A program made the position numbers and the translations under genes. A stretch of 64,000 nucleotides of DNA from Paratinospora sagittata (lineage: Eukaryota > Streptophyta > Magnoliopsida > Ranunculales > Menispermaceae): assembly GCA_035771175.1 (NCBI GenBank), contig CM069607.1, positions 16,686,001 to 16,750,000 of the forward strand, in the 5' to 3' direction. The notes under the pieces were generated by a model. It had not been told where the DNA came from, did no database searches, and saw nothing but the letters and a program-made list of their open reading frames with translations. Of the stretch, positions 513-43,159 are shown in pieces; position 1 is the first letter of the stretch; every line of letters starts with the position of its first letter.

Positions 513-650
513 CTAACCAACACCAGGGCCTGGTTAGAAAACCACTGCAACGTTAACCTACACGAGGGCTTGGTTAGAAAGGCACAATCTAACCTACACC
601 AGGGCTTGGCTAGTAAGCCACAACTTGCAACCAACTTACGGGTGTGGTTA
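513..650 (-). repeat. Hairpin array in LTR leader
   Basis: Four short inverted repeats occur in tandem. CTAACCA 513-519 pairs with TGGTTAG 531-537. TAACC 554-558 pairs with GGTTA 572-576. CTAACC 589-594 faces GGCTAG 608-613, which on the transcribed reverse strand is a G.U wobble. AACCA 629-633 pairs with TGGTT 645-649 around ACTTACGGGTG. The array is transcribed, since it lies downstream of the TATA box of the reverse LTR. Confidence 0.7.
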
Positions 651-1515: not shown

Positions 1516-1524
1516 TATTTATAG
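1516..1524 (-). promoter_or_regulatory. TATA box of solo LTR
   Basis: CTATAAATA on the reverse strand. A cluster of GC-core inverted repeats lies immediately upstream (1546-1900). Confidence 0.65.
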
Positions 1525-1545
1525 ACAAACACCACACCAAGACAC

Positions 1546-1900
1546 AGGAAAGCGTTCCTTAACACAGGAGCGTGTTTCTGGTTTGAAATCTGAAAACTTT
1601 TAGATTTTCCTCCAATTAAGGAGTGCATTCCTTACTTAAGGAGCGCGTTCCTCAATTTGTCCGTTGGGCATAGGAAAGGGTTCCTTCAACAAGAACCACT
1701 GGCTTTTAAATTTGTTCTCATTTTGCCCTTGGCAACAGGAATACATTCCTCCTTTAAGGAGCGCGTTCCTTTTCCCTGATAAAAAAAATCTGATTCTAAA
1801 AAAAAATCACAGGAGCGCGTTCCTTAACCCTGATAAAAAAAATCACTGAGTTTTGAGAAAAAACTTAGGAGCGTGTTTCTCACTATAGGAGCGTGTTCCT
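1546..1900 (-). promoter_or_regulatory. About ten GC-core palindromes upstream of TATA
   Basis: About ten copies of an imperfect 14-bp palindrome of the form AGGAGCGCGTTCCT are spread over 350 bp, for example at about 1640, 1757, 1811 and 1885. One variant, AGGAATACATTCCT, keeps the arms while losing the CG core. The cluster lies in U3, so it is a candidate enhancer. The CGCG core resembles plant CAMTA-type CGCG boxes; that link is inference. Confidence 0.6.
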
Positions 1901-2494
1901 TCACTAACAAGTGAAAGAGACTTGATTTTTGATCATTTTGGGTCTAGGAAATTGTCGAAACATAGATTAACATTTTAAAAACATTTTTGACACGATTAAG
2001 GTATAATTAACGCAGTTAAAGCATGAGCAATTTAATCCATTAAACCAATGATAAAAGCAATAAGTACAAAACATGTGAGACGATTAAACCATGCAAAGTT
2101 GACAAGTTGAATGCATGTTAAACAATGATCAAAATAGGTATGATAAACAATTATGGCCAAGTACTGGCATGATTATCAAACTAAAATATATGCATGCATG
2201 ATAATAATAAACTATATGAATGATTTTAGAAAGATGCAAATCATGTGTGGTTGGAACAAGTAACTATTATTCTGCAACACTAAGATTCTAGTAAAGTAAT
2301 ACAACTATGAAGCTCTCGAATCTCGAATCTTCATGAAGTACTCTTCCTTCCACATGTTTTGACATTGCAGTTGAATCCATTAGATATATCGAGTTAGCAC
2401 TGAAACAACTACGTCAAAGAGATTAGATAACACAGGTATGTTGTTTGCAATCATCGAAACAAAACTAGGTGCGAGTAGTTACATCAACAACACC

Positions 2495-11107: not shown

Positions 11108-11946
11108 TGTTGGCCCAATTGTTGGTTATACCCAAGAGGGGGGTGAATTGGGTATAATGGCAAAAATTAAACTTTTCCAACGTCTTAGTGAAATACTTGG
11201 ATACACTGGAAATGAATAATCAACCTTAACAAAATAAGACAAAGAAAAATGTGGAAAATAAGAGACACATGATTTATAGTGGTTCAACACGCCTACATCC
11301 ACTACCTAACCTCCCCAGTTAGGATTTTCTAAATTCACTAATTAATTCTCTTACGGGTGAGAACCAAACCGTTACAAATGTCTTTTTTCTGGTTCAAGGC
11401 AAACTTATCCTTTTGCGGGCTAAGGATGAACCACGTTTCCTTTTTTGGGCTGAGAAAAAATCCATGTTCCTTTTGGGGGCTAAGGAATAACCGGTAGATC
11501 CTACTTCAAGGTGGAGGATACACCTTCTAACGATTCCAACCTTGGAATCATCAAGTGAACTAAATTCACTAGACTTGGTTGTTTCAATCCAGAAACACAC
11601 CAACTTATGATTCACTATATATGTGCATAATAAACAATTTTAACCATATGATTGCGTAATAATCATGATTGTGTGTGTGCATGCATGATCAATATAATAA
11701 TAGCATATATGCATGAGTATGATGACCTATATGCATGATGTTCAAACGATGCCTATCATACTGTGGTTGGAACGTGTAACGGTTACTCTACAACACTAAG
11801 ATTCTTGACAAAATATTACAAACATGAAGCTCTTGAATCTTCATGCATTATTGTTCCATCCACACACTTTGCAAGTATAGTTGAATCCATCTGATATAGC
11901 TAGTTAACACTAAAACAACTAAGTCAAAGAGATTAATGATAACAAA
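11108..11946 (-). mobile_element. 5' LTR of reverse copia fragment (internally shortened)
   Basis: The 3' end is next to the PBS: reverse strand ...CCAACAATTGGGCCAACA. Compared with the related LTR at 253-2489, the leader hairpins (11346-11545) and the U3 start (11640-11946) are present but about 1.3 kb between them is missing, including the TATA region. It meets a forward LTR of the same family head to head near 11946. Confidence 0.7.
11305..11487 (-). repeat. Hairpin array in LTR leader
   Basis: CCTAAC 11305-11310 / GTTAGG 11318-11323. TTCTC 11346-11350 / GAGAA 11359-11363 around TTACGGGT. ATCCTT 11407-11412 / AAGGAT 11422-11427 around TTGCGGGCT. TTCCTT 11467-11472 / AAGGAA 11482-11487 around TTGGGGGCT. 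The loop is nearly constant while stems change on both sides. Confidence 0.75.
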
Positions 11947-12310
11947 TGTAACGACCCTCACCCGATTTTGTTTTGATAATTACAAACAACATACTTGTGA
12001 TCACTAATCTCTTTGACTTAGTTGTTTCAGTGCTAACAGGCTATATCAAATCGATTCAACTATACTGTCAAAGCGTGTGGATGGAATAATAATGCACGAA
12101 GATTCAAGAGCTTCATGCTTGTATTCTTTTGTCTAGAATCTTAGTGCTGTAGAGTAATCCTTAGTCATTCCAACCATAATATGATTTGCATCTTTTGAAA
12201 ATCATGCATATAGGTTATCATATTCATGCACATACACTATTATCATATTGATCATGCATGCACACACGTTATCATGATTATCATGTAATCTTATAGTTAA
12301 GGTTATTTAT
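11640..12310. repeat. Large inverted repeat from two LTRs joined head to head
   Basis: The left arm (about 11640-11946) is the start of a reverse LTR; the right arm (about 11990-12310) is the start of a forward LTR of the same family. Matching blocks include AACTAAGTCAAAGAGATTA / TAATCTCTTTGACTTAGTT and AAGCTCTTGAATCTTC / GAAGATTCAAGAGCTTC. The spacer is about 40 bp containing CGACCCTCACCCGATTTTG. Confidence 0.8.
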
Positions 12311-13623
12311 TATGCATATCTATATTATCGTTTATCATGCCCTCATATTAACAACTCTGCATGGTTTTAATCGTTTTACTTGTATCATATCGAACGTCTT
12401 GATCATCTGTATTAATCGATTGTTGTACCGTGTTTATCTTCACTAATTGTGTTTCAATCTTGTCAAAAATATTTTCACAGTTGGTTTATGTGTTTGACAA
12501 TGTCTTAAACTCATTTTGATCGAAAAATTGAGTTTCTATCACTTCAACGTGAAGAAACACACTCCTCATTCAAGGAACACGCTACTACGCCTTTTCCCGA
12601 GATTCAGATTTTTCTTATTAGAGTTTAAGGAACACGCTCCTGCGATTTTTCTCAAAACTTAGATTTTTCTAATCAGGGAATAAGGAACGCACACATGTAG
12701 AAAAGGGCAAAATAAGAATGTTTATAAAGTTAGTGGTTCTTGGTGAAGAACCTCGCTTCGATGCCCAATGGACATATTAAGGAACGTGCTCCTCGATTGG
12801 AGGGAAATCTGAAAAGTTTCAGATTTCAAAACAAAAGCGCGCTCCTCTATTAAGGGAAACGTTCTTGTGCCTCGGTCTGATATTTTTCTATAAATACCAC
12901 ACTTGCTCATTCGAAGAGCAACTTTTGCAAAATTTTAGAACTTGTGCCAAATCTTTGTTCTCTCTTTTTTCGAGTTTTAACACAAGTTCTTGAGTTTTCT
13001 TAAACATCTTTTGAGTGCAAAAGTTCACTACATTTGAATATTTGATTCAAACTTTCAAAGAGTTCTCCTCATTCTTTCAACATCTTTGAAATACTTGAAA
13101 GACATTCTTGAGTGTTGATCAAGCTGTGTGCAAGTGAGTTCTTCACGTCTTGTTGTTCTTGATCATCATTGAAGGAAGAATCTCTCAACCATCATCACAC
13201 TTGAAGAATCTTTAAGCTTCATCCTTACCTAAGTTGGGTAAAATCTCTCTATTAAGATTCTTGTGATTTTGATTGAGTTAAATCGATTTTGTGCTTGATT
13301 TGATATCTTGAAAATTGTTTTTGTTTTGAATATTGCTTGTGGAACCATACTTAATCTTCATATGATATTATCTTGATTAGTGGTTTCATTGTGGTCTCGA
13401 TTCATGTGCTAAACTTACATTATTTTAAATGGATTTCATTGATCATTACTTGAGCATATTGATTCTTGAACTTAACCATTTATCTATTTAGAATCAACAA
13501 GTCTTGATCATTTGTGCATATTAAATTCTTATGCTTCATACATATCATCTTTAGAATCAATATTCGAATACATGTGCATATTCAATTCTTGATGTTACAT
13601 TATCACTATTTGAATCGTTTGCA
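11947..13623 (+). mobile_element. Forward Sirevirus-like LTR, first segment (split by gypsy element and solo LTR)
   Basis: Begins about TGTAACGACCC, runs through U3 to the leader, and continues at 24449-24649 and 27446-27840 after removal of two insertions. GC-core repeats (AGGAACACGCTCCT type) lie at 12550-12870 and a TATA box at 12888-12896. The leader 12900-13623 is the reverse complement of 840-1520 in the solo LTR at 253-2489. TTGCA at 13619-13623 is the target duplication of the gypsy element. No gene in this segment. Confidence 0.75.
12888..12896 (+). promoter_or_regulatory. TATA box of forward LTR
   Basis: CTATAAATA, following six GC-core repeats; the reverse-strand counterpart is at 1516-1524. 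Confidence 0.65.
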
Positions 13624-14999
13624 TGTAATACCCTAGGTTTGCACAAAAAACAAAAAAAAAAATTGTTCGGGTAACCTGCCAGAACGTTCAGGCGCCAAAT
13701 TTTCTATATACACAACCCTCCCCCTCCTCATTTCTCACACTAAAATCACTACTCGTGATTTTCCTTCTCTCTTTCACACATTTTGAGTTTTTGTCCTCTC
13801 TTTTAAGACTCTCTTTCCGAGACTCTCTATGCGGTGCAACGTGGTTCTGCCCGGGGGAAGGCGCCAGTTCTGAAAAGAGTTTTTATCTGAAGGTGGGGAA
13901 CGAAACATAGGTTTGCGCATCTTATAACTTTTATTAAAGTTTACATTCATTTACCATTATGTCTACTATTCATTTACACTGCATTATTGCGTATAATGTT
14001 CATACTGTCAGACTTATGCCTGTATAATTGGAGTTCATGTATTACACTGTTGTTATGTCGTATTAGTGGTCAATCTGGCTCAACCAGACTTAGTCTTGTC
14101 CTCAGTAACTTTAAATAGTGAACGGGAGGCAGCGTGCTGCTCTAGACGATTGGTATTTAAGTAGACCTCGTGTCTCACCTCTCAACAGGAGACTGATCTG
14201 GTTGGTCTTATTTGAAAGCTATCAGCTTATACAAGTAATATTGAATGTCCTAACCTTGCACGTCGTGATATCGACCCTGATAAGGATCACCAGACGTTGC
14301 CAAATCCTGTCTAAATGTTAAGTAAAGACCGGCCCAGTTCATGCATTGGCATCATACGTAGCACCACCTGGGGACTTACGTGGTTTGTGATTCATAGAAT
14401 AGTTAGGAGCAATGCTCGTTATTCATTATATTTCTCTAGAGAGGGACGTACAATGTGAACTTGGCTACTCCTAGGGAGGGACATCTGTACGTGAATCCAG
14501 AGCGTCGTTCCTGAGAAGGGACGTACATTGAGAACCCGACTACTCCAGGGGAGGGACATCTGTACGTGAACTCAGGCGATGTACAATCATCAAACCAATA
14601 CGAGACGGTGTCATGCATACATTCATATTGGATTGATTATGATGCTCTGATGTGTATTTAAGATATTTGATTATGAAGTTTGTTTTATTAATTGTTATAT
14701 TCACGAACTATTTTACCCACTGAGCGTGTAGCTCACCCCGTTGTTATCCAATTTTTCACAGGAGATTAGGGTGGACTGGGTGCAGGTTTTTGGGCCCACA
14801 TTTTGTACCCTTTGTATTATTCATTGGGGATTTTGGGAGAATGTTCCCTTAACTATTTCATGTACAAATATATTCTAAAATTAATGAAATCAAACTTGTA
14901 CTTAATCGTGTTTCCGCGCACTTAGTTATTGTTATAATGCATTCGCGCCCCGTCCGTGAGTGTCCCGCAGGTTTAGGCGCATCCGGGTGGGGTGTGACA
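13624..14999 (+). repeat. 5' LTR of gypsy element
   Basis: 1376 bp. U3 is only about 70 bp: CAGGCGCC sits next to AAATTTTCTATATAAAC, a TATA box at about 13704-13712, just after an inverted repeat related to GAACGTTC. The long leader holds a repeat array of GGGACGT/GGGACAT units at 14435-14590. The end is GGTGTGACA at 14999. Confidence 0.9.
14435..14590 (+). repeat. Tandem GGGAC(G/A)T units in gypsy LTR leader
   Basis: Four units of about 38 bp (two alternating types) each pair a short self-complementary block (CTCTAGAGAG, CTCCTAGGGAG, TTCCTGAGAAGG, CTCCAGGGGAG) with GGGACGTACA or GGGACATCTGTACGTGAA. The matching array in the 3' LTR is at 23880-24030, where the block CTCCTAGGGAG is replaced by CTCTTGGGAAG. 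Confidence 0.65.
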
Positions 15000-15004
15000 T
15001 TTAA

Positions 15005-15016
15005 TGGTATCAGAGC
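15005..15016 (+). other. Primer binding site (initiator tRNA-Met)
   Basis: TGGTATCAGAGC, five bases after the LTR end. GTAAGG follows directly at 15017-15022 and has the form of a 5' splice donor. Confidence 0.9.
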
Positions 15017-15060
15017 GTAAGGTCCACGGCCCGCCCAAGTCCACCAAGATAGGAGAAGAA

Positions 15061-15085
15061 ATTATTTATTAGATATATATATCTC

Positions 15086-15139
<54 letters not shown>

Positions 15140-15270
15140 TTATATATATAGTTAAGATTTATATTAAATATATATCTAGAAAACTATATAGTTTTTATAT
15201 AGTTTAGATTCAAATATATATATTGTTATGATTGAATATATATATCTATATATCTATGCATATATGAGAT
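15061..15270. repeat. AT microsatellite region
   Basis: Long (AT)n run at about 15095-15136 with degenerate ATATCT/TATAT flanks, inside the gypsy leader. No coding potential. Confidence 0.9.
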
Positions 15271-15342
15271 ATATATATCATATTGCCAATAGAAAATTTG
15301 GATTAAATGATGGCATAAACATCAAGAGAAAAATATAAAATA

Positions 15343-17008
15343 TTGTCCAACGGACAAAGCATAAATCTCAAAAATGTTAGGAATATATTTTGTCTTTCAC
15401 AAATTTATTTTTCTTTGAGTAAAAGAATAGCCTCAAGTGAAGGAACGACTTCCGGTAGTAGGGAACCAATTCCCACTAGACTCAAGGAATTGTCGAAAAG
15501 GGAGGTTACAACTATGAGGAGTATCGACAATAGAGATCTCCGCCTCCGTCCAATCCTTCACGAAAAACTCGCAACACTGGGGTGGTTGAACATAACAAAA
15601 GTTTAGGGTCACGTCTCCAACAACTTGATGAAATCCTTTTACGCAGCCATGAATTGCGTAGGACTTCAAGAAGATGGATCAGCCCTGTTTTGGAGACAAC
15701 GGTCAGGGGAACAAAGATTTCTATCAACGTCGAAATTATTGCGCGACTTATGGAGATTCCAATTGAAGATAGAATTGTTGATCCACACGAACCCCAGACA
15801 GTTGCAGAGATCGCGGAGTCCAACGAACAGTTGTTCAATTCCCTCGCAAAGAGCCGTACACCCAATCAACGTACACCCACCTCCCAAACAATCTCCTTAA
15901 ACCATCTCTTGCCGGCCTTGGAAAGATCATATTCGGCAACATCTTGCCAGAAAGGGGGACAAGAGGCACTATGTCAAGGGCTCAATTTCTTGTGTTATAC
16001 TGCATAGAGAAGAAAATTAAGGTCTCCCTACCTCACATCATCATCCAACAAATGTTGAGGGTGATTCAAAACCCTTTAAGAAAGGATCTCCTCGGCTACA
16101 GAGTCTTGATCATGAGGATGCTATACGAGGCAAACGTCAACACTTTTGATGGGTTTTCGAAGCAGATCACTGAGGCGGTTACAACATCTTCTATCTTCAA
16201 GACATATGTCACAAGTGGAGGGATAACTGACGAGGAAGTATTCGGCGCGACTTTTAATGGCGAAGAATTAGAGACGAAAAAGGACGTTGTTACCGAAAAA
16301 GTCGACGCAAGATTCCTGTTAGGGAGGTACCAAATAACGAGCCAAACCAAAACCCTAAACCCAGCCTCGAATAATGATCCAACCGCGCACCTGTTCTCTG
16401 AGGAAGATTTATTTGCCAACCTAAATCAACCTCAACCAAATCAGGATAGACAAGAAGTTCTAGCAAATCCACCTTCCTGGAACATGCCAACTCAAGGCAA
16501 TACTACGTACCAAAGGTTTCCAACTCCTGAAGTACCGTATCGGGCAGTTTCACAAATTCCTGTGAACCAACAACAACAAAATTTTGCGGCACCAAATCTT
16601 GGAAGACAGGACATCATAATGAGCCCATTGTTTCAAGACTTTTTAACCCAAGCATATCCAAATGTCCAAGGGGTTCCAGTTAGGGAATCCCCGTACCGTC
16701 AAAACAACTACCCCACACCTATGAGTCAACCATACGACCAATACTTTCCACCAATGCTTACGGCCTACCATCCACCTATGGGATAGTCAACCCATCAACC
16801 ATTGATGGGGCAATGGACTAACCCATTCGAACAGTTAAATGTGATAGTAGCCAGTATTGCTCGTATAGAGGAAACTCAAAATACTTTGTTAACATGTATG
16901 CAAAACGTCAAACAACAACGAGCAAATTCTCAACCTTCTTCTAGCAGTCTTTCTGTACCTAGCAAGAGGTCTAGAAGGAGCAGTAGTAGGCAGAAAAATC
17001 AGGAATGA
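15343..17008 (+). pseudogene. Accessory ORF1 upstream of gag (copy 2 of 4 of the retroelement accessory family)
   Basis: Coding remnant in at least three frame pieces (15343-15606, 15582-15900, 15944-16786) with a tail at 16802-17008. Visible landmarks: SFYAAMNCVGL, then VRGTKISINVEIIARLMEIP, then LLPALERS and ILPERGTRGTMSRAQFLVLY followed by KIKVSLPHIII. The order FY-x-x-M, VRG-x-x-I, LLP, LVLY-x-I matches the copies at 28545-31471 and 51390-52629. The C-terminal 130 residues are Gln/Pro/Asn-rich, ending in a basic KRSRRSS tail. Chromoviruses of this type normally start with gag, so an ORF here is unexpected. Function is unknown; it is broken by frameshifts. Confidence 0.65.
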
Positions 17009-17109
17009 CCACTGGCATTGTAAAAATTTATTTTATATATGAATGAAATGTTTTGTTTAAGACTATCTTTGGTGGGCCGACTTACAACCATTCTTTCTTT
17101 TGTATCACT

Positions 17110-17384
17110 AACTTTGGAGTGGTATGGGACACAACAAAATTGGAGGATACTAAATAAAATGTGGAAGTAAGAAAACCCACGACCTTCTGTGAAAAGAAAC
17201 ATTTGGAGAAAGTTGGATTACTAACATTATCACTAAGTTTACACGGTATGGGACGAGTAAACTTGGACGATATTATTAGTGAACTACTATTCAGTCGATG
17301 TTTTATAGAGACCGCGTTCATACAACTTAACTTGGTTGACACCCTTATTACCAAATTCATGTGGTATGGGACACACGAATTTGG
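17110..17384 (+). repeat. Three-hairpin array with constant loop GGTATGGGAC
   Basis: AACTTTG 17110-17116 / CAAAATT 17135-17141 (one mismatch). AAGTTTAC 17235-17242 / GTAAACTT 17257-17264 (perfect 8 bp). CCAAATTC 17351-17358 / GAATTTGG 17377-17384 (perfect 8 bp). Each loop contains GGTATGGGAC (17121, 17245, 17363), spaced about 120 bp. The stems differ from each other but remain self-complementary. The array lies between ORF1 and gag in a 700-bp gene-free stretch (17009-17736). Confidence 0.8.
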
Positions 17385-17787
17385 ATAATAATCGAAAAGA
17401 CTAAGCGAAAGAGTTTGAATACATAAGATCGCGATAGAACGTTAGATCAGGATACTTACCGAGGAAAATCTTAGAATTTTTATGACTCGTATGGATTTTC
17501 AATGAAATATATATGTATGTTCACAAAAACTAGAACCAAAACATTTGAAATACTTGCAAAGTTTTATACTTATTATATAAACATTCTAACCTTGTTTTTA
17601 CACGTTGGCCAAACATACTAGGCATATAAGATTCTTTGATTCCTAAACAAAAACCTTACACTATACTTAGAAAAATAAGTGATTTTTATATTGCAGTACT
17701 CTCGAATTTGTTGCTGAGAATATCATAACATTATACTTGGCTACAGTTCCTAAATCATGGTTTTATTTTCTCCTTGCCAGTGAGAAA

Positions 17788-18925
17788 ATGCAAACCAGGA
17801 AGAGAGGAAGGCCACATACTGTCCATCCAGCAAAGGAGGCACCTCCTGAGATATTGAACCAGGAACTACCGCCTCCGAAGACAGTACAGGCCACACCTAA
17901 CACTGCCACTACGTCTGGGCAGGTAGTGCCACCCCAACCCACACTCTTTTCCATACCTTCGAGTATGGAAGTATTCTTCGCCTAATTTATCGAGGCTATG
18001 AAAGTAACTGTTCAGAAGGTCGTTCCTGAGACCGCGGCCAATCAGGTTGTTACTGTTCAGGCACCTGTGAGATTTGGGTCGGAGACTCAAACCGACCAGA
18101 TTACGAAATACAAGAGGCTACAACCTCTTACTTTTGCTGGCACCATTGATACTGAAGAGGTGCAGAAATGTCTGGATGAGTCAAAGAAGGCTCTCGATGC
18201 AATGGGAGTCGATGAGGCTCAAAAGATTCCACTTGCAACCTACCAACTTATTGGTGGAGCAAATACATGGTCGATAATAGCAAAGGAGGACCCAAGGGTC
18301 AACACCACAGACATGACTTGGCAACAGTTCGAGTCACTTTTTATTGATGAGTACTTCTCCGGAGCTGTGAAGAGGCAAAAGTGCCAGAAATTTGCCAAAC
18401 TATACCAAGGTGGCATGACAGTCAGGGAGTACGCTAGCAGGTTTAAAGAATTATCGGTCTACTATCTCTCCACCATCTCAATGAAAGCAAGATAAGACCG
18501 AGAAATTCTACAATGGCCTTCATCCTGACATTCGAAAAGCGTTGTCTATCTTGGATCTCAAAATTTACAGGGAGGTCGTTGACAAGGCCATGAGATTTGA
18601 ACATGAGAAGATTGTGCAGGAGCAGAGACTGGATAGGGGAAAATGGCCTGCAACATTTTTCCAATAGGGCAACAAGAAGAAGCCTTACTATAATCAAAAC
18701 CCACCACGACACCTAAGGCTGAACCATCTAACCCTGGCCATCAGGGTTTTCGCAATCATGGCCGCGGAGGCCTTAATGGCAGGGGTGGCCGTCGAAACGG
18801 CAATGGCAGAGGTGGTGGTCAGCACCACAATCAGCATGGCCAACAGAACAGTCAGCAGCAGAGGCTGACGTGTTACAATTGCGGCCAACAGGGCCATGTA
18901 AGAAATTTTTGTCAGCACCTTCAGC
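17788..18925 (+). pseudogene. gag: gypsy gag remnant
   Basis: The likely start is ATG 17788 (MQTRKRGRPHT), which directly follows a pyrimidine-rich stretch ending in CAG, a possible splice acceptor. The basic, proline-rich head is cut by a stop at 17983. The retrotransposon gag core then runs 17998-18495: LQPLTFAGTIDTEEVQKCLD, AMGVDEAQKIPLATYQL, W-x-x-FESLFIDEYF, GGMTVREYASRF. A frameshift follows at about 18490, then a Gly/His/Gln-rich stretch with the CCHC knuckle CYNCGQQGHVRNFC at 18868-18909. The product would form the virus-like particle. Disabled by stops and frameshifts. Confidence 0.85.
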
Positions 18926-19019
18926 AACCTATTCCCATTGTTTCAGTCAAACACCACCTGCTGCTAATGCCCAACCCAGGCAGAACTAGCAAAACCAGGG
19001 GCAACTGAACCAGGGTAGA

Positions 19020-22000
19020 GCATTTGCCATTGCTCAACAACCCCTCCCAGACAACAATGTAGTCGAAGGTACATTTTTCTTATTCAATACAGTGGTGCAT
19101 GTCTTGTTCGATTCAGGTGCGAAGCATTCTTTTATATCGTCTGCATTAGTAAGACATTTAGGGTTACATCCTGAACCCACAGAAATCACAATTCATGTCA
19201 CATCACCTTTAGGATCTAGTACTGACGTGAATTTGTAGTGCTCTCGATGTGAGCTTCGAATGTCAAAACAGATAATATATGCAGATTTTTTTGTGATGGA
19301 CATTGAAGACTTTGACATCATCCTAGGCATGGATTGGCTCGCACCACTGATTGCAAAAAGCGATTGTATGAAGAAGCAAGTTCAGTTAACCTTGCCCACG
19401 GGGGAGTTTGTCAAGATTCAAGGAAAAAGGAAATGGATACACAACACGACTGTTGCACTTCTAAAGGCACAGCTTCGAGCTTTATCCCTTGGTGATGAAA
19501 ATGAATCACCAGCACTATACCCTCTCGTAGTACACGATGTCCCGGTAATTTCTGAATTCTCAATAGTTTTTCTAAATGACCTTCCTGGTCTACCTCCGGT
19601 TAGGGAATTCGATTTTGAAATCAATCTCATACGTGGGACCGGGCCTATCTCAATTTCACAATACAGAATGTCAAATGTCGAGCTCATCAAAATGGACAAA
19701 CAACTGAAGGAATTAGAGAGTAATGGCTTCATCAGAAAAAGTTCATCACCTTGGGGAGCTCCAGTTCTGTTTGTTCGCAAAAAGGATGGTTCGTTACGAC
19801 TTTGCATCGACTATCGCAAGCTGAATAACGTCACCATTAAGAACAGAAACCCGTTGCCCAGGATTGATGACTTGTTCGACCAACTTAGAAATGCCAAATA
19901 CTTCTCTAAGATTGATTTACAATCCGGTTATCACCAACTCTGGATCCGAGAGTCGGACATTTCCAAGACGGCATTTAGAACTCGGTACGGTCACTACGAG
20001 TTCTTGGTCATGTCGTTCGGTCTAACAAATGCACCTGCTGCATTCATGGATTTGATGAACCGCATCTTTAGGTTATACTTATACCGATTTGTGGTGGTTT
20101 TTGTGGGCGATATCTTGATATATTCCTCAATTGAAGAAGACCATAAGATACATGTGAAGATAGTCCTCCAGACATTGAAAAGCCACCAGTTGTATGCAAA
20201 GTTGAGTAAGTGCAAATTTTGGGCGAAGCGAGTTCAATTCCTAGGCGATGTGGTTTCAGGCAATGACATTGAGGTGGATCCTTCTAAGGTTGAAGCGGTT
20301 TTAAACTGGAAGTAGCCTACCACTGTTACTCAGATTAGGAGTTTTCTTGGTTTGGCTGGCTATTACAGACGCTTCATCAAGGACTTCTCAAAGATTGCTG
20401 AACCTATGACAAAGCTCACTAGAAAAGACGTGCGATTCATTTGGAATCCCGCTTGTGAAACATCATTTCAGGAATTGAAGAAGTGTCTCACGACGGCATC
20501 AATACTCATCACTCCAACAAATGCACTTGGATTTTCACTATACACCAACGCCTCTCTACAAGGCTTAGGTGTTGTACTAATGCAAGAAGGCCAAGTTGTC
20601 GCATATGCCTTGAGGCAACTGAAGATTCATGACGGCAATTACCCAACACATGACTTGGAACTTGCAGCTGTCGTATTTGCACTGAAGCTATGGCGTCATT
20701 ACCTATATGGTAAACGGTTTGAGGTCTTCTCGGATCACAAGAGTCTTAAGTACATCTACACCCAGAGAGACCTAAACCTCCGCCAGAGACGATGGTTGGA
20801 ATTCTTGAAAGATTATGAATTTCAACTCCAATACCATCCCGGTAAGGCCAATGTTGTCGCTGATGCCTTGAGTCGAAAATCTTATGTTGCTTGCACTCTT
20901 AACTTCGAAATGGGGAAGTTGGCTACAGAGATGGAGAATTTTAACCTACAACAGATCGAGGAGGGAGCAAGATCACGACTTTCTCAATTATCAGCCAACT
21001 CTGAGCTGGTTCAAAAGATTTCAGCAGCTCAAGCCAACAACCCTATCTTAATAGAGAAACGCGAAGTTCTACTCAGCGGACAGGACCTTCCTCACTGGTC
21101 GGTATCTGAAGACGGGGTCGTTTTCTATAAAAAACGTCTCTGTCTACCGAACGATCCTGAGGTTCGAAAAGAAGTGCTCACTGAGATGCACTGTTCGAGG
21201 TTCGCTATGCATCCTGGGGGTGGCAAGATGTACAAGGATGTCAAGCGACAATTCTGGTTTTCTGGAATGAAGAAGGCGATTGCACACTTCGTTGCACGAT
21301 GTCTCGTTTGCCAACAAGTTAAGGCAGAACGAAGACTTCCCTTTGGACTTATCCAACCGTGATCTATTGGAGAATTGAAGTGGGAGAACATCGCAATGGA
21401 TTTTGTTACGGCCTTGCCTTGAAATAATAAAGGGAAAGATGTTATCTAGATTATCATTGACAGACTTACAAAGTCTGCACACTTTTTGCCAATAAAGTTC
21501 ACGGATAACCCTGCCAAACTTGCCGAACTATATGAAAGAGAAATCGTACGCCTCTATGGCATACCACTCATGATCGTCTCTGATCAAGACCCTCGATTCA
21601 CATCAAAACTTTGGCAAAGCTTTTAGAGTAGAATGGGCTCTAAGATCACCATGAGCACAGCCTTTCACCCTCAGACTGATGGACAATCAGAGCGTCTTAT
21701 CCAAATCTTGGAAGACATGTTACAGTGTTGCATTTTGGACTTTCAACGGATGGGCAAAGTACTTACATTTAGTTGAGTTTGCATACAACAACAGCTACCA
21801 AACTAGTATCGGCATGGCACCGTACGAGGCTCTCTATGGTCGCCCTTGCAGGTCTTCGGTATGCTGGTTAGATATGGCAGATCGACCGCAGTTGGGCCCT
21901 GAACTAGTTCAAGAGACTTCTGAGTAGATTACACTAGTAAATGAATGACTTCGTGTTGCACAAAGTCGACAGAAGAGCTATGCTGACAAGCGGAGGTAGC

Positions 22001-22440
22001 CTCTAGAATTTGATAAGGGGGACTTGGTTTTTCTAAAAGTTCAGCACACAAGAGGTGTCAAACGCTTTGGGATCAAAGGAAAGCTCTCTTCACGGTATAT
22101 CGGTCCATTTCAGATCATTGAACATATTGGAAAACTTGCTTATCGTCTGTCCCTTCCATTGTCCATGTCTAAGGTTCATGACGTTTTTCACGTATCCATG
22201 CTTCGAAAGTATCGTCCTGATCCTTCGCATATCATCCCTCTAGTCAAGGTTCGGGTTGAGGAAGGAAATAGGTATCAGGAGAGAGCAATACAGATTTTGG
22301 ATAGAAAAACTCAAGAACTAAGCGACGTAGCATACCACTTGTGAAGGTGCTCTGGGATCACCACGAAGTAGAGGAAGCAACATGGGAACTAGAAGCAACA
22401 ATTAAACAGAAATACCCTGAATTGTTTTCTAGTAATAACT
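19020..22440 (+). pseudogene. pol: gypsy pol remnant: protease, RT, RNase H, integrase, chromodomain-like tail
   Basis: Protease motif VLFDSGAKHSF at about 19100 is intact. RT (about 19600-20320) has the usual LCIDYRKLN and [10 protein letters not shown], but the catalytic F-V-D-D box reads FVGDILIYS, losing one metal-binding Asp. A TAG at 20313 interrupts RT. RNase H starts [10 protein letters not shown], with Asn where Asp is usual, and keeps [11 protein letters not shown] and DHKSLKYI. Integrase has the H-x(n)-C-x2-C finger (HPGG...CLVCQQ), several stops from 21361, and the [11 protein letters not shown] block. The C-terminus near 22330-22440 reads in shifted frames as VLWDHHEVEEATWE, a chromodomain-type tail. 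The chromovirus assignment rests on that tail and on TGGTATCAGAGC. Confidence 0.9.
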
Positions 22441-22532
22441 GATGATGTGATACATTATACTTTTTTACTTATTAATAAAATGATGGAACTTTGTTTACAA
22501 ATATCTTAATACGTCGTTTCACTTGAATAACT

Positions 22533-23050
22533 ATGCAGATGTCTAAAAATAATAGCAACGGATATAGTATGCACACACGCAGTGGCCTCATTGGCAACCT
22601 GTGGGGACCCCTCCAGGATCAGAGTCAAGTCACAACTACCTTACATCACCAACTCCATCGCCACACAGACAACGATCCTTATCGCCAGAGCGTGCATGGC
22701 TTTTTCAAAACATTTTTTCCCAAAACAATCCCGTGCCCTCATCTTGGCATGACCTTTTACCAAAATTTCCAGGTGGCCGGATTTGAGCAACAACACGAAA
22801 AAACATCCCACCGCTCAACCTACCTCCCCTCAAACGATGTAACCGGCGCCCTACACCACCATCTGTTAAGCAAAGGTTTGAATCTTCTAAGGACGAATCC
22901 GACTCCATTTGCTCTCCATGTTTTCATGATGTTGAGGATTCCACCATCCACAGTGCCATTCAGGGACCATACAGGCACTACCTTGAACTAGGAAACGATA
23001 ACTCCGGCAGTGAATCTCAAGCAGATAACCATCATGACTACTTGAACTGA
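22533..23050 (+). pseudogene. Third ORF between pol and 3' LTR, unknown
   Basis: Opens MQMSKNNSNGYSMHTRSG, then the best reading shifts frame: GTPPGSESSHNYLTSPTPS, WLFQNIFSQNNPVPSSWHDL, one TGA near 22788, KQRFESSKDESDSICSP, and an acidic end reaching a TGA at 23048, just before the polypurine tract. The N-terminal half is Pro/Ser-rich, the C-terminal half acidic. About 160 residues. I do not recognise it. It could be an accessory protein or a captured sequence; a non-coding leader of the 3' LTR is the alternative. Confidence 0.4.
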
Positions 23051-23068
23051 TTTCGAGGGCGAAATTCT

Positions 23069-23084
23069 TTTAAGGGGGGTAGAG
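23069..23084 (+). other. Polypurine tract of gypsy element
   Basis: TTTTAAGGGGGGTAGAG-type tract directly before the 3' LTR start TGTAATACCC at 23085. Confidence 0.85.
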
Positions 23085-24443
23085 TGTAATACCCTAGGTT
23101 TGCACAAAAAAAAAAAATTTTTCGGGCCACCTACCCGAACGTTCAGGCGCCAAATTTTCTATATAAACAACCCTCCCCCTCCTCATTTCTCACACCAAAA
23201 TCACTACTCCTTGTGATTTTCCTTCTCTCTTTCACTCATTTTGAGTTTTTGTCTTCTCTTTTGAGACTCTCTGTGCGGTGCAACGCGGTTCTGCCCGGGG
23301 GAAGGCGCCAGTTATGAAAGAAGTTTTTATCTGAAGGTGTGGAACGAAACATAGGTTTGCGTGTCTTATAACTTTTATTAAAGTTTACATTCATTTACCG
23401 TTATGTCTACTATTCATTTATACTGCATTATTGCGTATATTGTTCGTACTGTCATACTTATGCCTGTATAATTGGAGTTCATGTATTACACTGTTGTTAT
23501 GCAGGATTAGTGGTAAATCTGGCTCAACCAGACTCAGTCTTGTCCTCAGTAACTTTAAATATTGAACGAGAGGCAGCGTGCTGCTCTAGACGATTGGTAT
23601 TTAAGTAGACCTCGTGTCTCACCTCTCAACTGGAGACTGATTTGGTTTGTTTTATTTGAAAGCTATTAGCTTATACAAGTAATACTGAATGTCCTAATCT
23701 TGCACGGCGTGATACCGACCCTGATAAGGATCACCAGACGTTGCCAAATCCTGTCTAAATGTTAAGTAAAGACCGGACCAGTTCATGCATTGGCATCATA
23801 CATAGCACCACCTAGGGACGTATGTGGTTTATGATTCATAGAATAGTTAGAAGCAATGCTCGCTATTCATTATATTTCTCTGGAGAGGGACGTACAATGA
23901 GAACCTGGCTACTCTTGGGAAGGGACATCTGTACATGAATCCAGAGCGTCGTTCCTGAGGAGGGACATACAATGAGAACCCGACTACTCCTGGGGAGGGA
24001 CATCTGTACGTGAACTCAGGCGATGTACAGTCATCAAACCAATAAGAGACGGTGTCATGCATACATACATATTGGATTGATTATGATGCTCTGATGTGTA
24101 TTTAAGATATTTGATTATGAAGCTTGCTTTATTAATTGTTATATTCACGAATTATCTTACCCACTGAGCGTGTAGCTCACCCCGTTGTTATCCAATTTTT
24201 CACAGGAGATTAGGGTGGACTAAGTGCAAGTTTTTGGGCCCACATTTTGTACCCTTTGTACTATTCATTAGGGATTTTGGGAGAATGTTCCCTTAACTAT
24301 TTCATTTACAAATATATTCTGAAATTAATGAAATCAGACTTGTACTTAATCGTGTTTCCGAGCACTCAGTTATTGTTATAATGCATTCGCGCCCCGTCCG
24401 TGAGTGTCCCGCCGGTTTAGGCGCGTCCGAGCGCGGTGTGACA
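23085..24443 (+). repeat. 3' LTR of gypsy element
   Basis: 1359 bp, same start and end as the 5' LTR. TATA at about 23158-23167 (CTATATAAAC), preceded by GAACGTTC and GGCGCC palindromes. The tandem GGGAC array is at 23880-24030. TTGCA follows at 24444-24448. Confidence 0.92.
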
Positions 24444-24448
24444 TTGCA

Positions 24449-24649
24449 TGTATTTGAAAACAACTATTTCAACACTGCACATCAGTTAAAATATTGTGGT
24501 TGGAATAGTAGTGATTATTCGTTGAAAATGGTACGCTTAAAATTGTTGAGAGTGTTTTTAGAAGATCTCCATCTATCATTTGTAATCTTGATCTATTGTT
24601 GACTTGTTAGTCAATGGGGACTGTACCATACTATTATACGACTTGTAAC
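24449..24649 (+). repeat. Forward Sirevirus-like LTR, second segment
   Basis: Reverse complement of 655-820 in the solo LTR (shared GTTGGAATAGTAGTGATTA-type block and TTGTAATCTTGAT). It joins 13623 on the left once the gypsy element is removed, and ends in GTAAC (24645-24649), the target of the next insertion. Confidence 0.75.
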
Positions 24650-24827
24650 TGTTGGTGCACCCAAGAGGGGGGTGAATTGGGTGTGATGGTCAATTTTAAA
24701 CTTTTCCAATGACTTAGTGATATGCATTGGTACATTGGAACTAAATGTACATACTAACCGTAAAGTAAAATGCATAACTTAAATCACACTAGGATTTATA
24801 GTGGTTCAGCCAAGCCTACGTCCACTA

Positions 24828-25130
24828 CCTAATCTCCCGATTAGGATTTTCTCAACCCACTAACTGATTCTCTAATGGGTGAGAACCAAATCGTTATACA
24901 TGTCCTTTTACTGGTTCAACGTGAACCTATCCTTTTACGGGCGAAGGATGAACCGTATTTCCTTTTTTCGGGATGAGAAAAAACCTATGTTCCTTTTATG
25001 GGATAAGGAAAAATTATTTTCCTTTTACGGGATAAGGAAGAACCGTTTTCTCTTTTACAGGTTAAGGACGAACCTATCCTTTTACAGGATAAGGATGAAC
25101 CGGTTTCCTACTTACAGGTGAGGATGAACC
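24828..25130 (-). repeat. Hairpin array with constant TTACGGG loop in LTR leader
   Basis: CCTAAT 24828-24833 / ATTAGG 24840-24845. TTCTC 24868 / GAGAA 24881. ATCCTT 24929-24934 / AAGGAT 24944-24949. TTCCTT 24990-24995 / AAGGAA 25005-25010. TTCCTT 25019-25024 / AAGGAA 25034-25039. ATCCTT 25076-25081 / AAGGAT 25091-25096. Loops read TTACGGGCG, TTATGGGAT, TTACGGGAT, TTACAGGAT. A:T and T:A end pairs alternate between units with pairing kept. Confidence 0.85.
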
Positions 25131-25888
25131 TTAATATGATTTCAACTCTGAAATCATTAAGTGAACTACATTCACTTGTCCTGGTTGTTTCAATCCAGAA
25201 ACACACCAGCATTACAACACAACAATAATGTTGGTTCTAACTGAGTATAACACTTTATAATTAAGCTCATGTGAATAGCATTACAAAGATGTATAAATTT
25301 GAATACGTAATGCAAAGAGACATACACTTACAGTCCTTTACCTTTCAGTGCTCGGTATTGCTTAAGTGCAGTTTTAAAAAGCGTGAATGATATGTAAGTC
25401 AGTTAAGTGCTTCTTTGAAAACATTATGATACCATTGAAAGATTGAAGTTGAAAATGCAAGACCAGTGTAAATCGAAGACACAGACAGTTTTCAAAATAG
25501 ATATAGTACATAAGCATTAAAACTTCTAGTTTAGTATTCAGTAGTTAAGACAAATACTGATATAGGTCAATATAGTACTTAAGAGATGAAATCAAGTACA
25601 ACTGTATTTCTCATGAACTAATTCTCAAATTCCTTCATCAGCATGATTGAAGTTAAGTATAAATCCAAGCTGAGAATTTGAGTAAAAACCAGTTCAAAAT
25701 AGATTTTCAAAGATAGAATATAATTGAAGCTCAATATGAAAATCTTTTGACTAAGCAAAGTATAAGTGAAGAATACTTTGAAAACTTAGAACATTTGAAA
25801 ACTTTGAAAGATTTAAACAACGACTAACATTCAAATAGTTTTTGGTACAATAAAAATTATCGGAAAGTTGTTTGATTCAAAGTGTTGG

Positions 25889-25897
25889 TATTTATAG
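25889..25897 (-). promoter_or_regulatory. TATA box of solo LTR
   Basis: CTATAAATA on the reverse strand. Upstream GC-core units begin about 270 bp away. Confidence 0.6.
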
Positions 25898-26164
25898 ACT
25901 TAGTAAATAATAGTTGTTAAATATTTGAAATTCAAATACAATGTTAACGTTTACACACAACGGCTAGAATGTTATATGAAAATGGCAACTGTAATTTTCA
26001 CTAACGATCTGGTTCTTTTCAGATCACATGAAATAGGAAAGTTTTAGAAAAACTTAATTCATGTATCAAAGAAGATCTCTAATAAATCTGAAAAGGACTC
26101 TATGCAAAGATCCGTTCTGAAATAGTAGACTTATATAGTGTACTTGTTAGAACAGTGACAGTTG

Positions 26165-26840
26165 TTGAATTAGCGTCCTGATTCCTTAATCAGCGTCCTG
26201 ACGCATAATATCAACTTTGTCGTTTTGTTCCTTCAGGGCGCTCATTACGTATAAACTTTATGCTGAATAATAAAGTGAGGGAGCTACTATCTTATAAGCG
26301 TCCTGAATTTTCTTGCGACATAAGTGACTTAACCTTGAGGGCGCTAATGCACAGTTAGCGTCCTACTTTGTCTAAAAACAGTTAAGTGCATGAGGGTGTT
26401 ACTTTCCTAGTGAGCGTCCTACCTTTTGAAACATAAAATAAAACACGAGGACGCTACTACTATGTAAGCGTCCTACCATATTTAAAACATTTGAAGAACA
26501 ATACTAAGTACACTGAAGGACAATCAGCGTCCTGAAAGTTATTAAGTTGATTCCCAAATATGAGGGCGCTCCTATCCAGGTAGCGTTCTGATAGTTTATT
26601 CAACTTATAACTATCAACGTCCTCAAAGATAAATTCTTTGAAAAACTTAAAAATCTTTCAGTAAGCTGATGCTGAGTCAGCATCCTGACACGTTCAGTGG
26701 TTGACTAACGAGAAACAGCTACTTACAAGTAAGCGTCCTGATTAATCAGTTCAATTCAACCTTGAATGTTATGAGCGTCCTAATGAATCATCAACGTCCT
26801 AACTTGTCAAGTTCAAAAGAGCGTTGCTAAATCATTAGTG
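26165..26840 (-). promoter_or_regulatory. Array of paired AGGRCGCT / AGCGTCCT units in U3
   Basis: About ten facing pairs, for example GGACGCT...AGCGTCC at about 26450-26475, and AGCGTCCTGATT / AATCAGCGTCCTGAC at 26172-26200, where CTGATT and AATCAG also pair. The outer arms are conserved; the inner bases vary but often stay complementary. The same array is in the LTR at 47770-48370. Confidence 0.65.
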
Positions 26841-27440
26841 TCTTGAAAGACTCTTTAAAAATAGTTTTTGTCTCGCGCTTAGAAATACAATGAATGCAAA
26901 TAAAAACTCAATAAATTTCAAATTAAACATAGAAAATTAAATCATTTGAAATACTGTAGAGCGTAAGATCGAAACATGCAAATATGCAAGTGATTTGTGC
27001 ATGATTTTGAAAAACGTTTAAGCAATATCGATTAGAGAAAGATATACCTTAAATACTGTGTATTTCTCGTATTTCTCATAATCTTTAAATCTAGCTCTTT
27101 ATTATGAGATCTTCAATGTGGATTTCAAGCTTGAGTTGAATATCTTGGATGTTGATCGAAAGATGTAGTCTTGAAGTTTGATCGAATCGTTCATGTGGTG
27201 TAATCTTGAATACATGATATGATCGTTAAGGTGCTTTTGATTGAAACGATCTTGAACGTCTGATATGACCTTGAGTTCCTTCATCGAATCGTTCTTTGGC
27301 TTTTTGCTTTCGTGAGGTGCTGAGATTGGTTCTTGATAAAAGCTCGTTAGCATCGAAAGAGATTTCATTTGTGATCATCAAAATATACTTCATCAAGTAT
27401 ACTTGGGGACATGCTAAGTGAGGAACTGCTTAGGTAAACA

Positions 27441-27611
27441 GTAACCACACCTGTAAGTTGGTTACAGTACGGCTTCTAGCCAAGCCCTTATGTTGGTTAG
27501 TGTGTGCGGCTTCTAGCCAAGCCCTTACGTTGGTTAGTGTATACGACTTCTAGTCATGCCCGTAAGTTGACTAGTGTGTACGGCTTCTAGTCACGCCCAT
27601 AAGTTGACTAG
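27441..27611 (+). repeat. Five-hairpin array with covarying stems in LTR leader
   Basis: GTAACCA 27441-27447 / TGGTTAC 27459-27465. CTAGCCAA 27476-27483 / TTGGTTAG 27493-27500 (one G.U). CTAGCCAA 27513-27520 / TTGGTTAG 27530-27537. CTAGTCA 27550-27556 / TGACTAG 27568-27574. CTAGTCA 27587-27593 / TGACTAG 27605-27611. Loops are CCTGTAAG, CCCTTATG, CCCTTACG, CCCGTAAG, CCCATAAG. The change CC to TC in the left arm is matched by GG to GA on the right. Confidence 0.88.
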
Positions 27612-27840
27612 CCAATAGTGGATGGGAAATCCTGATCATGGGTGGTTAGGTAGTGGAATAGGTTCAAGGGGAACCGAACCACTATAAATCGTTGTGACCA
27701 TTTATTTTTCCTGCACTTGATTATTTGGCTTGTTACCTAATGCGCATATATTCTGTTTAAATTAATTAACCGAAAGGTAACACAAAAATCCGCCAAGTCT
27801 AATTCACTCCCCCTTCTTTGACTATAATACTTAGCCAACA
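27446..27840 (+). repeat. Forward Sirevirus-like LTR, third segment (3' end)
   Basis: Continues from 24649. Hairpin array 27441-27611, then GGTTAGGTAGTGGAATAGG, CGAACCACTATAAATCG and the terminal TAATTCACTCCCCCTTCTTTG...CTTAGCCAACA. No primer binding site follows, so this is a solo or 3' LTR. Confidence 0.75.
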
Positions 27841-28526
27841 GTTCAATAAGTCAAATGTGTCAAATATTTGTTGATTGAGTGTTATTCAATGTTGGTTTGA
27901 TGATATTTGATGTTTGGTGTTGGTTGAAGTTGAAGAAAATCTCATTCGAATTCTTTGTCATTTCACCGACACGTTGGTTGGGTTAGCAGCACGCTCCTGG
28001 TGATGGCAGAAACCCAGTTGTTCCTGGGATTGGGTAGAAAAGCGTACTCTTATGGAGAGAAGCACGCTCCTTTGGTCCCATCTGGAAACATGTCCCTCAA
28101 GTTCCTCAGAGAAGCATACTCCCCAGGTGAGTAGGGCGCTATTGGCAATATCTTGCAATAAGTGTTCTTAGGTTGTCCCAGAGAAGCGCACTCCTACGGC
28201 AAGCAGTGAGCTTCTGCCTGGATCTGGGCGACACTTATATCAGGGGCTATTCACGTTTGGCATATGCTTACTCTGACTGAGATCTTTGGAGATGATTCTA
28301 TACTACAATTCGGTGTCCCTTGTTCATTTCATTTCATTTTATCTTTTATCCTTGCCCTCGCAGCGACCTCTTACTCTGTTTCAGTGTGCTCCCACCTTCT
28401 CCATCATTTCTTTGCATCTTAGGTAATTTTTCATCGTTCCTATCCATATTCTTCACTCAGTCTACTTTCTTTGTGCCCTAGATTTTCAACTTCTCATTTT
28501 CTTTGCGCAAACCCTAGATTTCTAGA
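27841..28526 (+). promoter_or_regulatory. Upstream region of accessory gene with GCGC-core repeats
   Basis: 27960-28205 contains six repeats of the form AGAAGCRCRCTCC. Pyrimidine-rich leader with TTTCATTTCATTTTATC and TTCTCATTTTCTTTGCGC follows up to the start codon. It probably corresponds to the U3 and leader of a decayed element, but LTR ends are not visible. The repeats resemble those at 57040-57290. Confidence 0.45.
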
Positions 28527-41278: not shown

Positions 41279-43159
41279 TGTTAGTCACCCAAGAGGGGGG
41301 GTGAATTGGGTGTCATGGCCACTTTTGAACTTTTCTATTTCTTATGAGATTCCATGACTCAATTGGGTTCATTAAATCTAATGAGTACAAAGTAAAATGC
41401 ATAAAGTAAAGTACACGCATATTTATAGTGGTTCAACTGCGCCTACGTCCATTATCTAATCTCCCGATTAGGATTTTGAAATCCACTAATGAATCCTCTT
41501 ACGGGTGAGGACCAAACCGTTACAAATGCCCTTTTACAGGTTCAAGGAAAACCTATCCTTTTTCGGGCTAAGAATGAACCACAATTTCTTTTTTCGGGCT
41601 AAGGAAGAACCCATGTTTCTTTTGCGGGCTAAGGAAGAATCCATGTTCCTTTTCGCAGGTTAAGGAAGAACTACTTTACCCTTTTCAAGAGAAATGATGA
41701 ACCTAGCTAGATTCCAACATTGGAATCTCAAGTAAGGACTTGGTTGTTTCAATCTTGAAACGAACCAAAAACCCCAATTACAATGATTAAAATGTTTGTT
41801 CTAATAATTAGAACAATTATACATGAAGCTCATAAACATAAATACCAAATACAAGATATGGAAATTTGAGCTCAAGGTGAAGAGAGACCTTACAATGATT
41901 TATACTTTTCTTGCAACCATATTTGCTCAAGAAAATGATTTTGAAGATGCTTTGAATGATGGACAATGAAAAAGGTTGAACAAATCAACATTTCTAAGTT
42001 CTAGGTTTTTGAAATGAGAAAAATGATTTGATCTTGAAAAAAACTCCCTAGATTCACATGGTTGTCTCTCTTGTGTTTAGAATGGCCTAATTACATGTAT
42101 TTATATATTAGAAACAAGTTATAGCCGTTACACACAAGAATATAGCCATTGGGGGTGAAAAATCTGATTTTGGACCATTGGAAATGTGCCAAGAAAAGTT
42201 GCAGAAAATTTCAGATTTTCGCATTAGCTCCCTCATTGCGCATTAGCTTGCTCATGTAGACAGTTTGCAGAAGCTTGCTCATGCAGACAGTTTGCATTAG
42301 CTTGCTCACACTCAATTAGCGTCCTAACTCTTCACAAAATTTTGAAACTTTTCTCTTTTTAAAAAATATATGAAATGAAAACCAAATATAAACATATAAT
42401 AGCTTAAAATTTATGTAAAGAGCATTCTGAAACCATTGAAAACATTTTCAAAACAATTTGAGAAAGATATCAAGTACGTTTAAAGGGTTAAAGTTTATTT
42501 GTGCATACTTTGAATGTGAAAACTTAGGTTAACATGGTTTTTTAAAATTCTAAACACATGGACTTATTTGGGCATCAAAATATGATTGAAATATATTTAG
42601 TTTGGTGATTAAAACACTTTGAAATCAACAATTAAACAAGATTTTTATAAAAATCAAAACAATTTTGATTATTTTGAAAAACTTTGTAAAAATATCATTT
42701 TAATCAAAACTAATGCAAATATGATTCAAAATAGTTTGAGAACATAAATCAAACATTTATGAATACTTGAAAATCATTTTTAAGGAATACTTAATGCATG
42801 AATGAATTTTATCAAAACTATGCATATGTGAAGTACGAATGCATGAAGTTTAGGAAAGATTGAGCAATAGGAAATGCAAGAAGGTTACTTCATAATTCTA
42901 GACACATAAAGACTCTCAACCTTTTTGTCTTCATTCCTTCAAGTTGTCCAATTGTCTAAGCTTTGAGTGTACTTGATCCTTTTCTTTGATCCTTTACTTG
43001 ATGAACTTCTTGAACTTGAAGACTTAGAACTTTTATTGATTCATCTTTGCTTTAGGTTCTGAAATATACTTAGTTCAAACATTAGCACCATTTGTTATAT
43101 TGTTTGTTAGTATCAGAACACTTAGGAGAGTGCTAAGTGAGAAACCACTTAGGCCAACG
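41279..43159 (-). mobile_element. Solo LTR, Sirevirus-like, inside copia RT (TSD TATAA)
   Basis: On the reverse strand starts (C)GTTGGCCTAAGTGGTTTCT and ends CCCCCCCTCTTGGGTGACTAACA; 1881 bp. TATAA is at 41274-41278 and 43160-43164. TATA-like TATATAAATA on the reverse strand at 42107-42098. Repeats of AGCTTGCTCATGCAGACAG type at 42225-42330 lie just upstream. Hairpins: CTAAT 41456 / ATTAG 41467; TCCTC 41494 / GAGGA 41507 around TTACGGGT; and three more to 41680. Gene-free. Confidence 0.9.

Follow-up and report, generated by a model that had tools for sequence, protein, structure and literature searches.

Tandem hairpins in the U3 region of a Sirevirus LTR of Paratinospora sagittata: probable selection on folded sense-strand RNA

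Five hairpins in an interrupted Sirevirus LTR

What keeps the two arms of a hairpin complementary when neighbouring hairpins of the same array carry different stems? The question is raised by a tandem array at 27441-27611 (+ strand) in a 64,000-nucleotide stretch of the Paratinospora sagittata genome (contig CM069607.1, positions 16,686,001 to 16,750,000; hereafter the window). A first-pass annotation of this stretch had described five consecutive hairpins whose stems covary yet stay paired, and had proposed selection on folded RNA or on single-stranded cDNA. Our comparison of family copies and of related families suggests that the array, a series of small stem-loops within U3 of a Sirevirus LTR, is probably kept by selection as folded sense-strand RNA.

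Folding and repeat scans re-found the five units (27441-27465, 27476-27500, 27513-27537, 27550-27574 and 27587-27611; units 2-5 with a period of 37 nt) together with their arms, namely GTAACCA/TGGTTAC in unit 1, CTAGCCAA/TTGGTTAG in units 2 and 3, and CTAGTCA/TGACTAG in units 4 and 5. The idea that every stem within the array is distinct is ruled out by these two shared stems. The step from the stem of units 2 and 3 to that of units 4 and 5 had been presented as a change of CTAGCCA to CTAGTCA matched by TGGTTAG to TGACTAG; one of the two pairs concerned is indeed compensatory (C:G to T:A), and the other is a wobble change (G.T to G:C). The loop had been called constant, which holds for its length: the five loops (CCTGTAA, CCCTTAT, CCCTTAC, CCCGTAA and CCCATAA in units 1-5) are all different and only roughly alike, with CCCGTAAG present in unit 4 only.

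The minimum-energy fold of the + strand as RNA contains all five hairpins (-53.2 kcal/mol, z -2.08, 7/200 shuffles equal or better). The - strand RNA gave z -1.20 (29/200 shuffles equal or better), and the + strand folded as DNA gave z -1.71 (11/200) and showed the hairpins only in part. Scanning both strands of the window revealed nine clusters with at least four hairpins of 7 bp, among which the cluster at 27441-27611 is the only one with a single loop length throughout. Another of the nine belongs to a second copy of the same family, a presumed solo LTR of subfamily B (253-2489, - strand, 2,237 bp) with the TSD GGTGT, no PBS or PPT alongside, and a five-unit hairpin array at 478-651 (- strand). 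Rfam 15 covariance models, searched against 27000-28200 at E up to 5, returned a single match, outside the array and far under its gathering score, and the identification of the array with a known Rfam family was rejected on these grounds.

The LTR that hosts the array lies in three parts on the + strand, at 11946-13623 (5' part, start approximate), 24449-24649 (middle part) and 27441-27840 (3' part, terminus ...TTAGCCAACA). An LTR retrotransposon with the TSD TTGCA is nested at 13624-24443 (its own LTRs, at about 13624-15001 and 23085-24445, are 92.7% identical), and a presumed solo LTR of a Sirevirus-like family, termed E below, is nested at 24650-27440 (- strand, TSD GTAAC) inside the 5' arm of unit 1. 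The middle part of the host LTR extends as far as GTAAC, the five bases that open unit 1 and that are one TSD copy of the nested LTR. Because this insertion sits in the arm, similarity of the window copy to other copies begins at 27441. In another family locus (L147) the array is, as judged by eye, also joined inside an arm by similar-looking sequence, and the hairpin arm is possibly a preferred insertion target. Three further repeats were observed in the window: a large inverted repeat at 11616-12324 (82% over 716 aligned positions), apparently formed where two LTR starts meet head to head around 11946; AGCACGCTCCT-type repeats at 27985-28195, soon past the LTR end, which resemble the box cluster of the family LTR; and a tandem duplication at 61332-61677 (period about 168 bp, 92% identical).

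The array had been placed in the LTR leader, downstream of the TATA box, and this placement had to be reversed. The TATA box (27683-27689, + strand, in the context CACTATAAATC) begins 71 bases past the end of the array, and the array therefore belongs to U3, not to the leader. In retroelements, transcription from the element's own promoter covers the part of U3 that precedes TATA solely in the 3' LTR, so that the hairpins would sit in the genomic RNA's 3' UTR, a short way ahead of the poly(A) end.

Passages of PMC2829016 describe, for Sireviruses, a typical LTR/PBS junction, a PPT, a C-rich integrase signal and a TATA box after a repeat cluster, and the earlier label of a Sirevirus-like LTR is upheld by the junction, the signal and the TATA box, a PPT with one mismatch being seen in one copy. 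The 5' LTR/PBS junction is given there as CA / A(T or G)TGG / TATCAGAGC; a PBS-like 12-mer (<=2 mismatches) was found directly after CA/AG in 11 of 70 LTR ends (duplicates included), with the spacer AGTGG in nine and AGTGC in two, and the remaining 59 ends are taken as 3' or solo LTRs. The integrase signal, placed by the same source about 21 bp before the LTR end, is matched by AATTCACCCCCC (<=2 mismatches) in 65 of the 70, no more than 60 bp from the terminus, and in the window a C-rich stretch resembling it (27801-27820, + strand) ends 20 bp before the LTR end. PMC2829016 places the PPT, AGGGGGAG, 10 bp ahead of the 3' LTR and reports more copies further upstream. Locus L171 carries AGGGGGAA, with one PPT mismatch, 10 bp before the point where the LTR is inferred to start, and AGGGGGAG some 400 bp upstream. 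This was one of five upstream pieces, the other four comprising one 5' LTR, one presumed solo LTR and two pieces without an LTR start. A TATA box follows the repeat cluster in the window copy, where it is comparable to the published Sirevirus TATA motif, and in other copies, subfamily B having the variant CTCTAAAT. The domains Retrotran_gag_2, Pol_BBD, SH3_retrovirus and RVT_2 were detected in pieces downstream of 5' LTRs, and a pol-like frame was absent from one (L170) of the two pol pieces examined. At L169 2718-2990 (- strand) a gag-like frame, recognised by eye, runs reversed downstream of the pol piece and perhaps belongs to another nested element.

Arm pairing across copies and families

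A 23-mer adjoining the TATA box, beside the array, occurs with <=3 mismatches at 3,218 places in the 1.29-Gb genome, and its reversed pattern at none. In total 168 family loci were fetched, 152 via queries or a motif outside the array and 16 via an array-containing query; 60 of them were taken from the 100 listed among the 3,218 places, all exact matches and so perhaps young. Since C7 of the assembly carries a twin of the window region, with 99.7% identity in a compared stretch of 3.3 kb, near-identical copies were removed before counting. Loci L001, L002, L009 and L039, which repeat the window or its twin, were left out, as were L008 (no anchor), L166 and L157; 164 loci stayed after exclusions, and removal of 30 near-identical ones left 134 distinct copies, in which 619 units were detected (between 1 and 8 in each, usually 4 or 5). 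Between C19 and C7, three family places correspond at a nearly constant offset (10,362,221 to 10,362,417) over about 127 kb, which reflects either unmerged haplotypes or a recent duplication.

Pairing in most family members, which the first-pass annotation had named beforehand as a check, was borne out: all six core pairs were standard in 410 of the 619 units, whereas 500 redeals of the 3' arms averaged 199 and never exceeded 228, and combining an arm with that of another unit in the same array gave such pairing in 610 of 2,414 cases. Among 24 core stem types present in at least four units, 18 were fully paired (six by Watson-Crick pairs only) and six had one mismatch. The eight commonest were all fully paired: CTAACC/GGTTAG (78 units), CTAGTC/GACTAG (51), CTAGCC/GGTTAG (49, with one G.T), GTAACC/GGTTAC (47), CTAGCC/GGCTAG (42), CTAATC/GATTAG (33), GTAACC/GGTTGC (15, one G.T) and CTAGTC/GATTAG (10, one G.T). 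Subfamily D adds CTATCT/AGATAG and CTAGTT/AACTAG. The arms thus change together, as had been claimed, and do so across units, subfamilies and families.

The statistical weight of this covariation within subfamilies A-D is uneven. Among the 311 units whose loop is of the CCCGTAA class, pairs 1, 4 and 5 were standard in 0.90, 0.97 and 0.96, against 0.50, 0.73 and 0.76 under independence, and the other four stem pairs were near independence; in the CCCTTRTG loop class pair 4 alone was clearly above it (0.96 vs 0.84). The A-D loops fall into two classes, with conservation no higher than that of the arms. Covariation beyond a phylogenetic null, the other check named in advance, did not emerge: in an R-scape-like test on a unit tree of 546 distinct units (paralogues), the best stem pairs reached E 0.18, 0.32 and 3.15, not significant, and ranked 3, 4 and 7 of 703, with two loop-loop pairs ranking higher. 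We attribute this to unit types that are old and few. On the sequence evidence, the covariation signal resides in the kind of substitution and in the differences between families. Folding energy was modestly better than in shuffles (mean z -1.5 in 60 of 125 arrays), and the gap in folding energy between the + and - strands was discarded as evidence, being mostly composition (shuffles -5.7, real -6.9 kcal/mol). A pseudoknot between the unit-start TACGG and the loop CCGTA, and a GGCTT/AAGCC helix, were likewise rejected, their pairing equalling the expectation under independence.

Three further LTR families in the window (E, F and G, joined by a relative, G2) show hairpins in the same place, their CCCGTAA-type loops being set on other stems. 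The family E array (24866-25118, - strand, last unit 24866-24887) lies in the nested LTR at 24650-27440 and comprises the last unit and eight CCCGTAA-like loops (<=1 mismatch), with ATCCTT/AAGGAT and TTCCTT/AAGGAA among their stems. The arrays of families F (41492-41628, last unit 41492-41513) and G (46969-47084, last unit 46969-46990, with a PBS-like junction after the LTR) are also on the - strand, and the last unit of G2 (58853-58874, + strand) is followed by the LTR/PBS junction CA/ATTGG/TATCAGAGC. Together with 28 genomic copies, drawn as 20, 6 and 2 of the 40 places in each of three listings, these four gave 32 last hairpins (23 distinct), of which 30 were fully paired over 7 bp and none had an A.C cell. 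Their stems include GGTTCTC/GAGAACC, GGTCCTC/GAGGATC, GGTCTTC/GAAGATC, GATCTTC/GAAGATC and more wobble forms, and none of 2,000 column shuffles matched the observed pairing of the 23 distinct hairpins. Among the other E-G units, judged on chosen reference pairings, full pairing was found in 33/36 (g1), 9/14 (g2), 6/19 (e1), 14/18 (e2) and 8/8 (e4), and the outer pair of the family E unit e1 was T.T in 11 of 19.

Wobble bias and the competing explanations

The kind of mismatch that a stem tolerates can tell RNA from DNA. A palindrome maintained in double-stranded DNA should show G.T and A.C on the sense strand about equally, whereas a folded sense RNA tolerates G.U only. On a flank-only tree of the E-G last hairpin, about 12.5 events led from Watson-Crick to G.T and none to A.C, along with 4.5 from G.T to Watson-Crick, three two-sided changes between Watson-Crick pairs and two from Watson-Crick to another mismatch. 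The mismatch-type cells of the other E-G units comprised 19 G.T, five A.C and 23 others. With the expected G.T share taken from per-base rates in the flanks (0.52-0.55), which gives p-values less extreme than Fisher tests on raw flank counts, binomial p was about 0.0008 (12 to 0) and 0.014 (19 to 5). These families supply the strongest evidence that the stems may be held as RNA.

The same direction was seen in subfamilies A-D. Flank trees of 124 copies each gave about 35 events involving G.T against 11 involving A.C in last units (p 0.0003) and about 47 against 17 in first units (p 0.0001), where flanks predict about 0.50; tips dominate these counts, and the flank trees are short and noisy. 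Arrays with fewer than three units were left out of first-unit and last-unit counts, and copies whose last-unit anchor lies too near an end were dropped. In 20 bootstrap trees of the units, single-sided losses of Watson-Crick pairing on deep branches averaged 11.8 to G.T, 3.5 to A.C and 3.4 to transversions, and at the tips 81, 59 and 92. The 26 non-stem columns had no such trend (GT-type share 0.45 both deep and at tips, transversion share 0.42 and 0.39). The deep-versus-tip test for G.T fell below 0.05 in 11 of the 20 trees and was reversed or flat in three. All wobble counts come from one genome, and their events and cells are partly non-independent. Read together, they make folded sense RNA a better account than palindromic DNA or repair by mutation. 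The choice between RNA and single-stranded cDNA, left undivided by the first-pass annotation, falls on the RNA side, because pairing in minus-strand cDNA would leave the opposite bias.

This bias bears on each of the other explanations. The units could be double-stranded DNA palindromes, dyad-symmetric transcription-factor sites just upstream of TATA of the sort proposed for repeated Sirevirus motifs, and in accordance with this proposal the array occupies the place upstream of TATA described in passages of PMC2829016, where dyad symmetry is also said often to mark retrotransposon activators, and TARYC is common to many A-D half-sites. Strand symmetry, however, predicts equal G.T and A.C, and families E-G show 12.5 to 0 and 19 to 5 with flanks near parity; moreover, a single factor should prefer a single half-site, and the stems vary both within one LTR and between families. 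We therefore regard such DNA sites as rather unlikely to explain the array. Pairing might instead be kept by mutation, if one arm were copied onto the other, either when reverse transcriptase switches template at a hairpin or when one unit converts another. Two-sided changes do occur, and the range of 1 to 8 detected units per copy indicates that units are gained and lost, but this process also predicts G.T equal to A.C, and deep branches that resemble the tips. Both predictions disagree with the counts, although the deep-branch difference is not robust in every tree, and a purely mutational origin is the least probable of the explanations considered.

A role on the side of the host is scarcely more credible. 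Palindromic RNA would in that case seed siRNAs and silencing, the stems persisting through a separate cis-regulatory role, and the palindrome-rich LTR regions of maize Sireviruses are indeed small-RNA hotspots according to passages of PMC10760457 and PMC5311732. Selection on the element, however, should then weaken the stems, and stems of 6-8 bp with loops of 8-11 nt are short for Dicer substrates.

A possible role and known systems

Selection on folded sense-strand RNA together with a protein that reads the loop is, taken as a whole, on balance the explanation that we favour. The presence of one loop type on differing stems in several families suggests that the loop is the part that is read, although the A-D loop falls into two classes. 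The CCCGUAA-type loop, presented on interchangeable stems, would be recognised by a protein, either the Gag of the element or an RNA-binding protein of the host, and the repetition of hairpins would provide avidity. That the array serves as a platform for such a protein is proposed tentatively. The likeliest benefit would be a genomic RNA that is stabilised, exported or packaged, and with similar reserve the array may be seen as a row of RNA-recognition sites in the 3' UTR through which Gag or a host protein sorts genomic RNA to stability, export or packaging. It might then be distinct from the promoter boxes and represent a plant-retrotransposon counterpart of retroviral transport and packaging elements, a comparison we offer as a conjecture.

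Sirevirus palindromes have so far been interpreted as promoter boxes and as hotspots of small RNAs, and their persistence despite attracting silencing is a puzzle. A wobble bias on the sense strand tells selection on RNA from selection on DNA by sequence alone; if it holds, some Sirevirus repeats are kept as RNA, which is testable in thousands of copies.

The closest published relatives are the repeated motifs (RM boxes) of Sirevirus LTRs (Bousios et al. 2010, PMC2829016), and the first-pass annotation had left undecided whether the hairpins are the same as published Sirevirus palindromes. As far as the available passages of that paper describe them, both are repeated dyad-symmetric LTR units upstream of a conserved TATA box, and the clustering upstream of TATA inside the LTR was found here as well. 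RM boxes, though, are compact palindromes with a CGG-CCG core in 12 of 13, at least 8 copies per element, 66-100% identity between copies and a position bounding CpG islands, whereas the array has loops of 8-11 nt and stems that vary between units and covary. The CGG-CCG core was absent from the frequent arms, and the interleaved TACGG/CCGTA helix was without covariation. Moreover, the array lies between TATA and a separate CG-core repeat cluster. This second cluster, noted in the LTRs at 253-2489 (-) and 11946-13623 (+) at about 590-930 bp from the LTR start, consists of GGAACGCGCTCC-like near-palindromes resembling the classical Sirevirus boxes; 25 matches were found on both strands of the window, where 0.46 are expected. 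The shared position thus stood, and the identity of the array with a published RM box was rejected for its lack of the core and for the separate cluster in the same LTR.

The maize Sirevirus LTR palindromes that attract siRNAs (Bousios et al. 2016, as cited in passages of PMC10760457 and PMC5311732) are alike in that they cluster in the regulatory part of the LTR and are predicted to form secondary structure, and differ in their motif, CACCGGACNNNGTCCGGTG (PMC10760457). Palindromic repeats upstream of the Sirevirus TATA box are therefore known, and no report of covariation or wobble bias in Sirevirus hairpins was found in the passages covered of PMC2829016, PMC10760457, PMC5311732, PMC3601003 and PMC12501189, a scope to which the 2016 Genome Research palindrome study does not belong. 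Arabidopsis Copia93/Evade offers a precedent for the role suggested here, namely the ENE RNA element of its 3' UTR, described in passages of PMC12501189. The ENE is a triple helix that involves the poly(A) tail, unlike tandem stem-loops, and is likened to the array by description, not by homology; it is, as proposed for the array, a structured 3'-UTR RNA of a plant Copia element, and it raises RNA stability and mobility.
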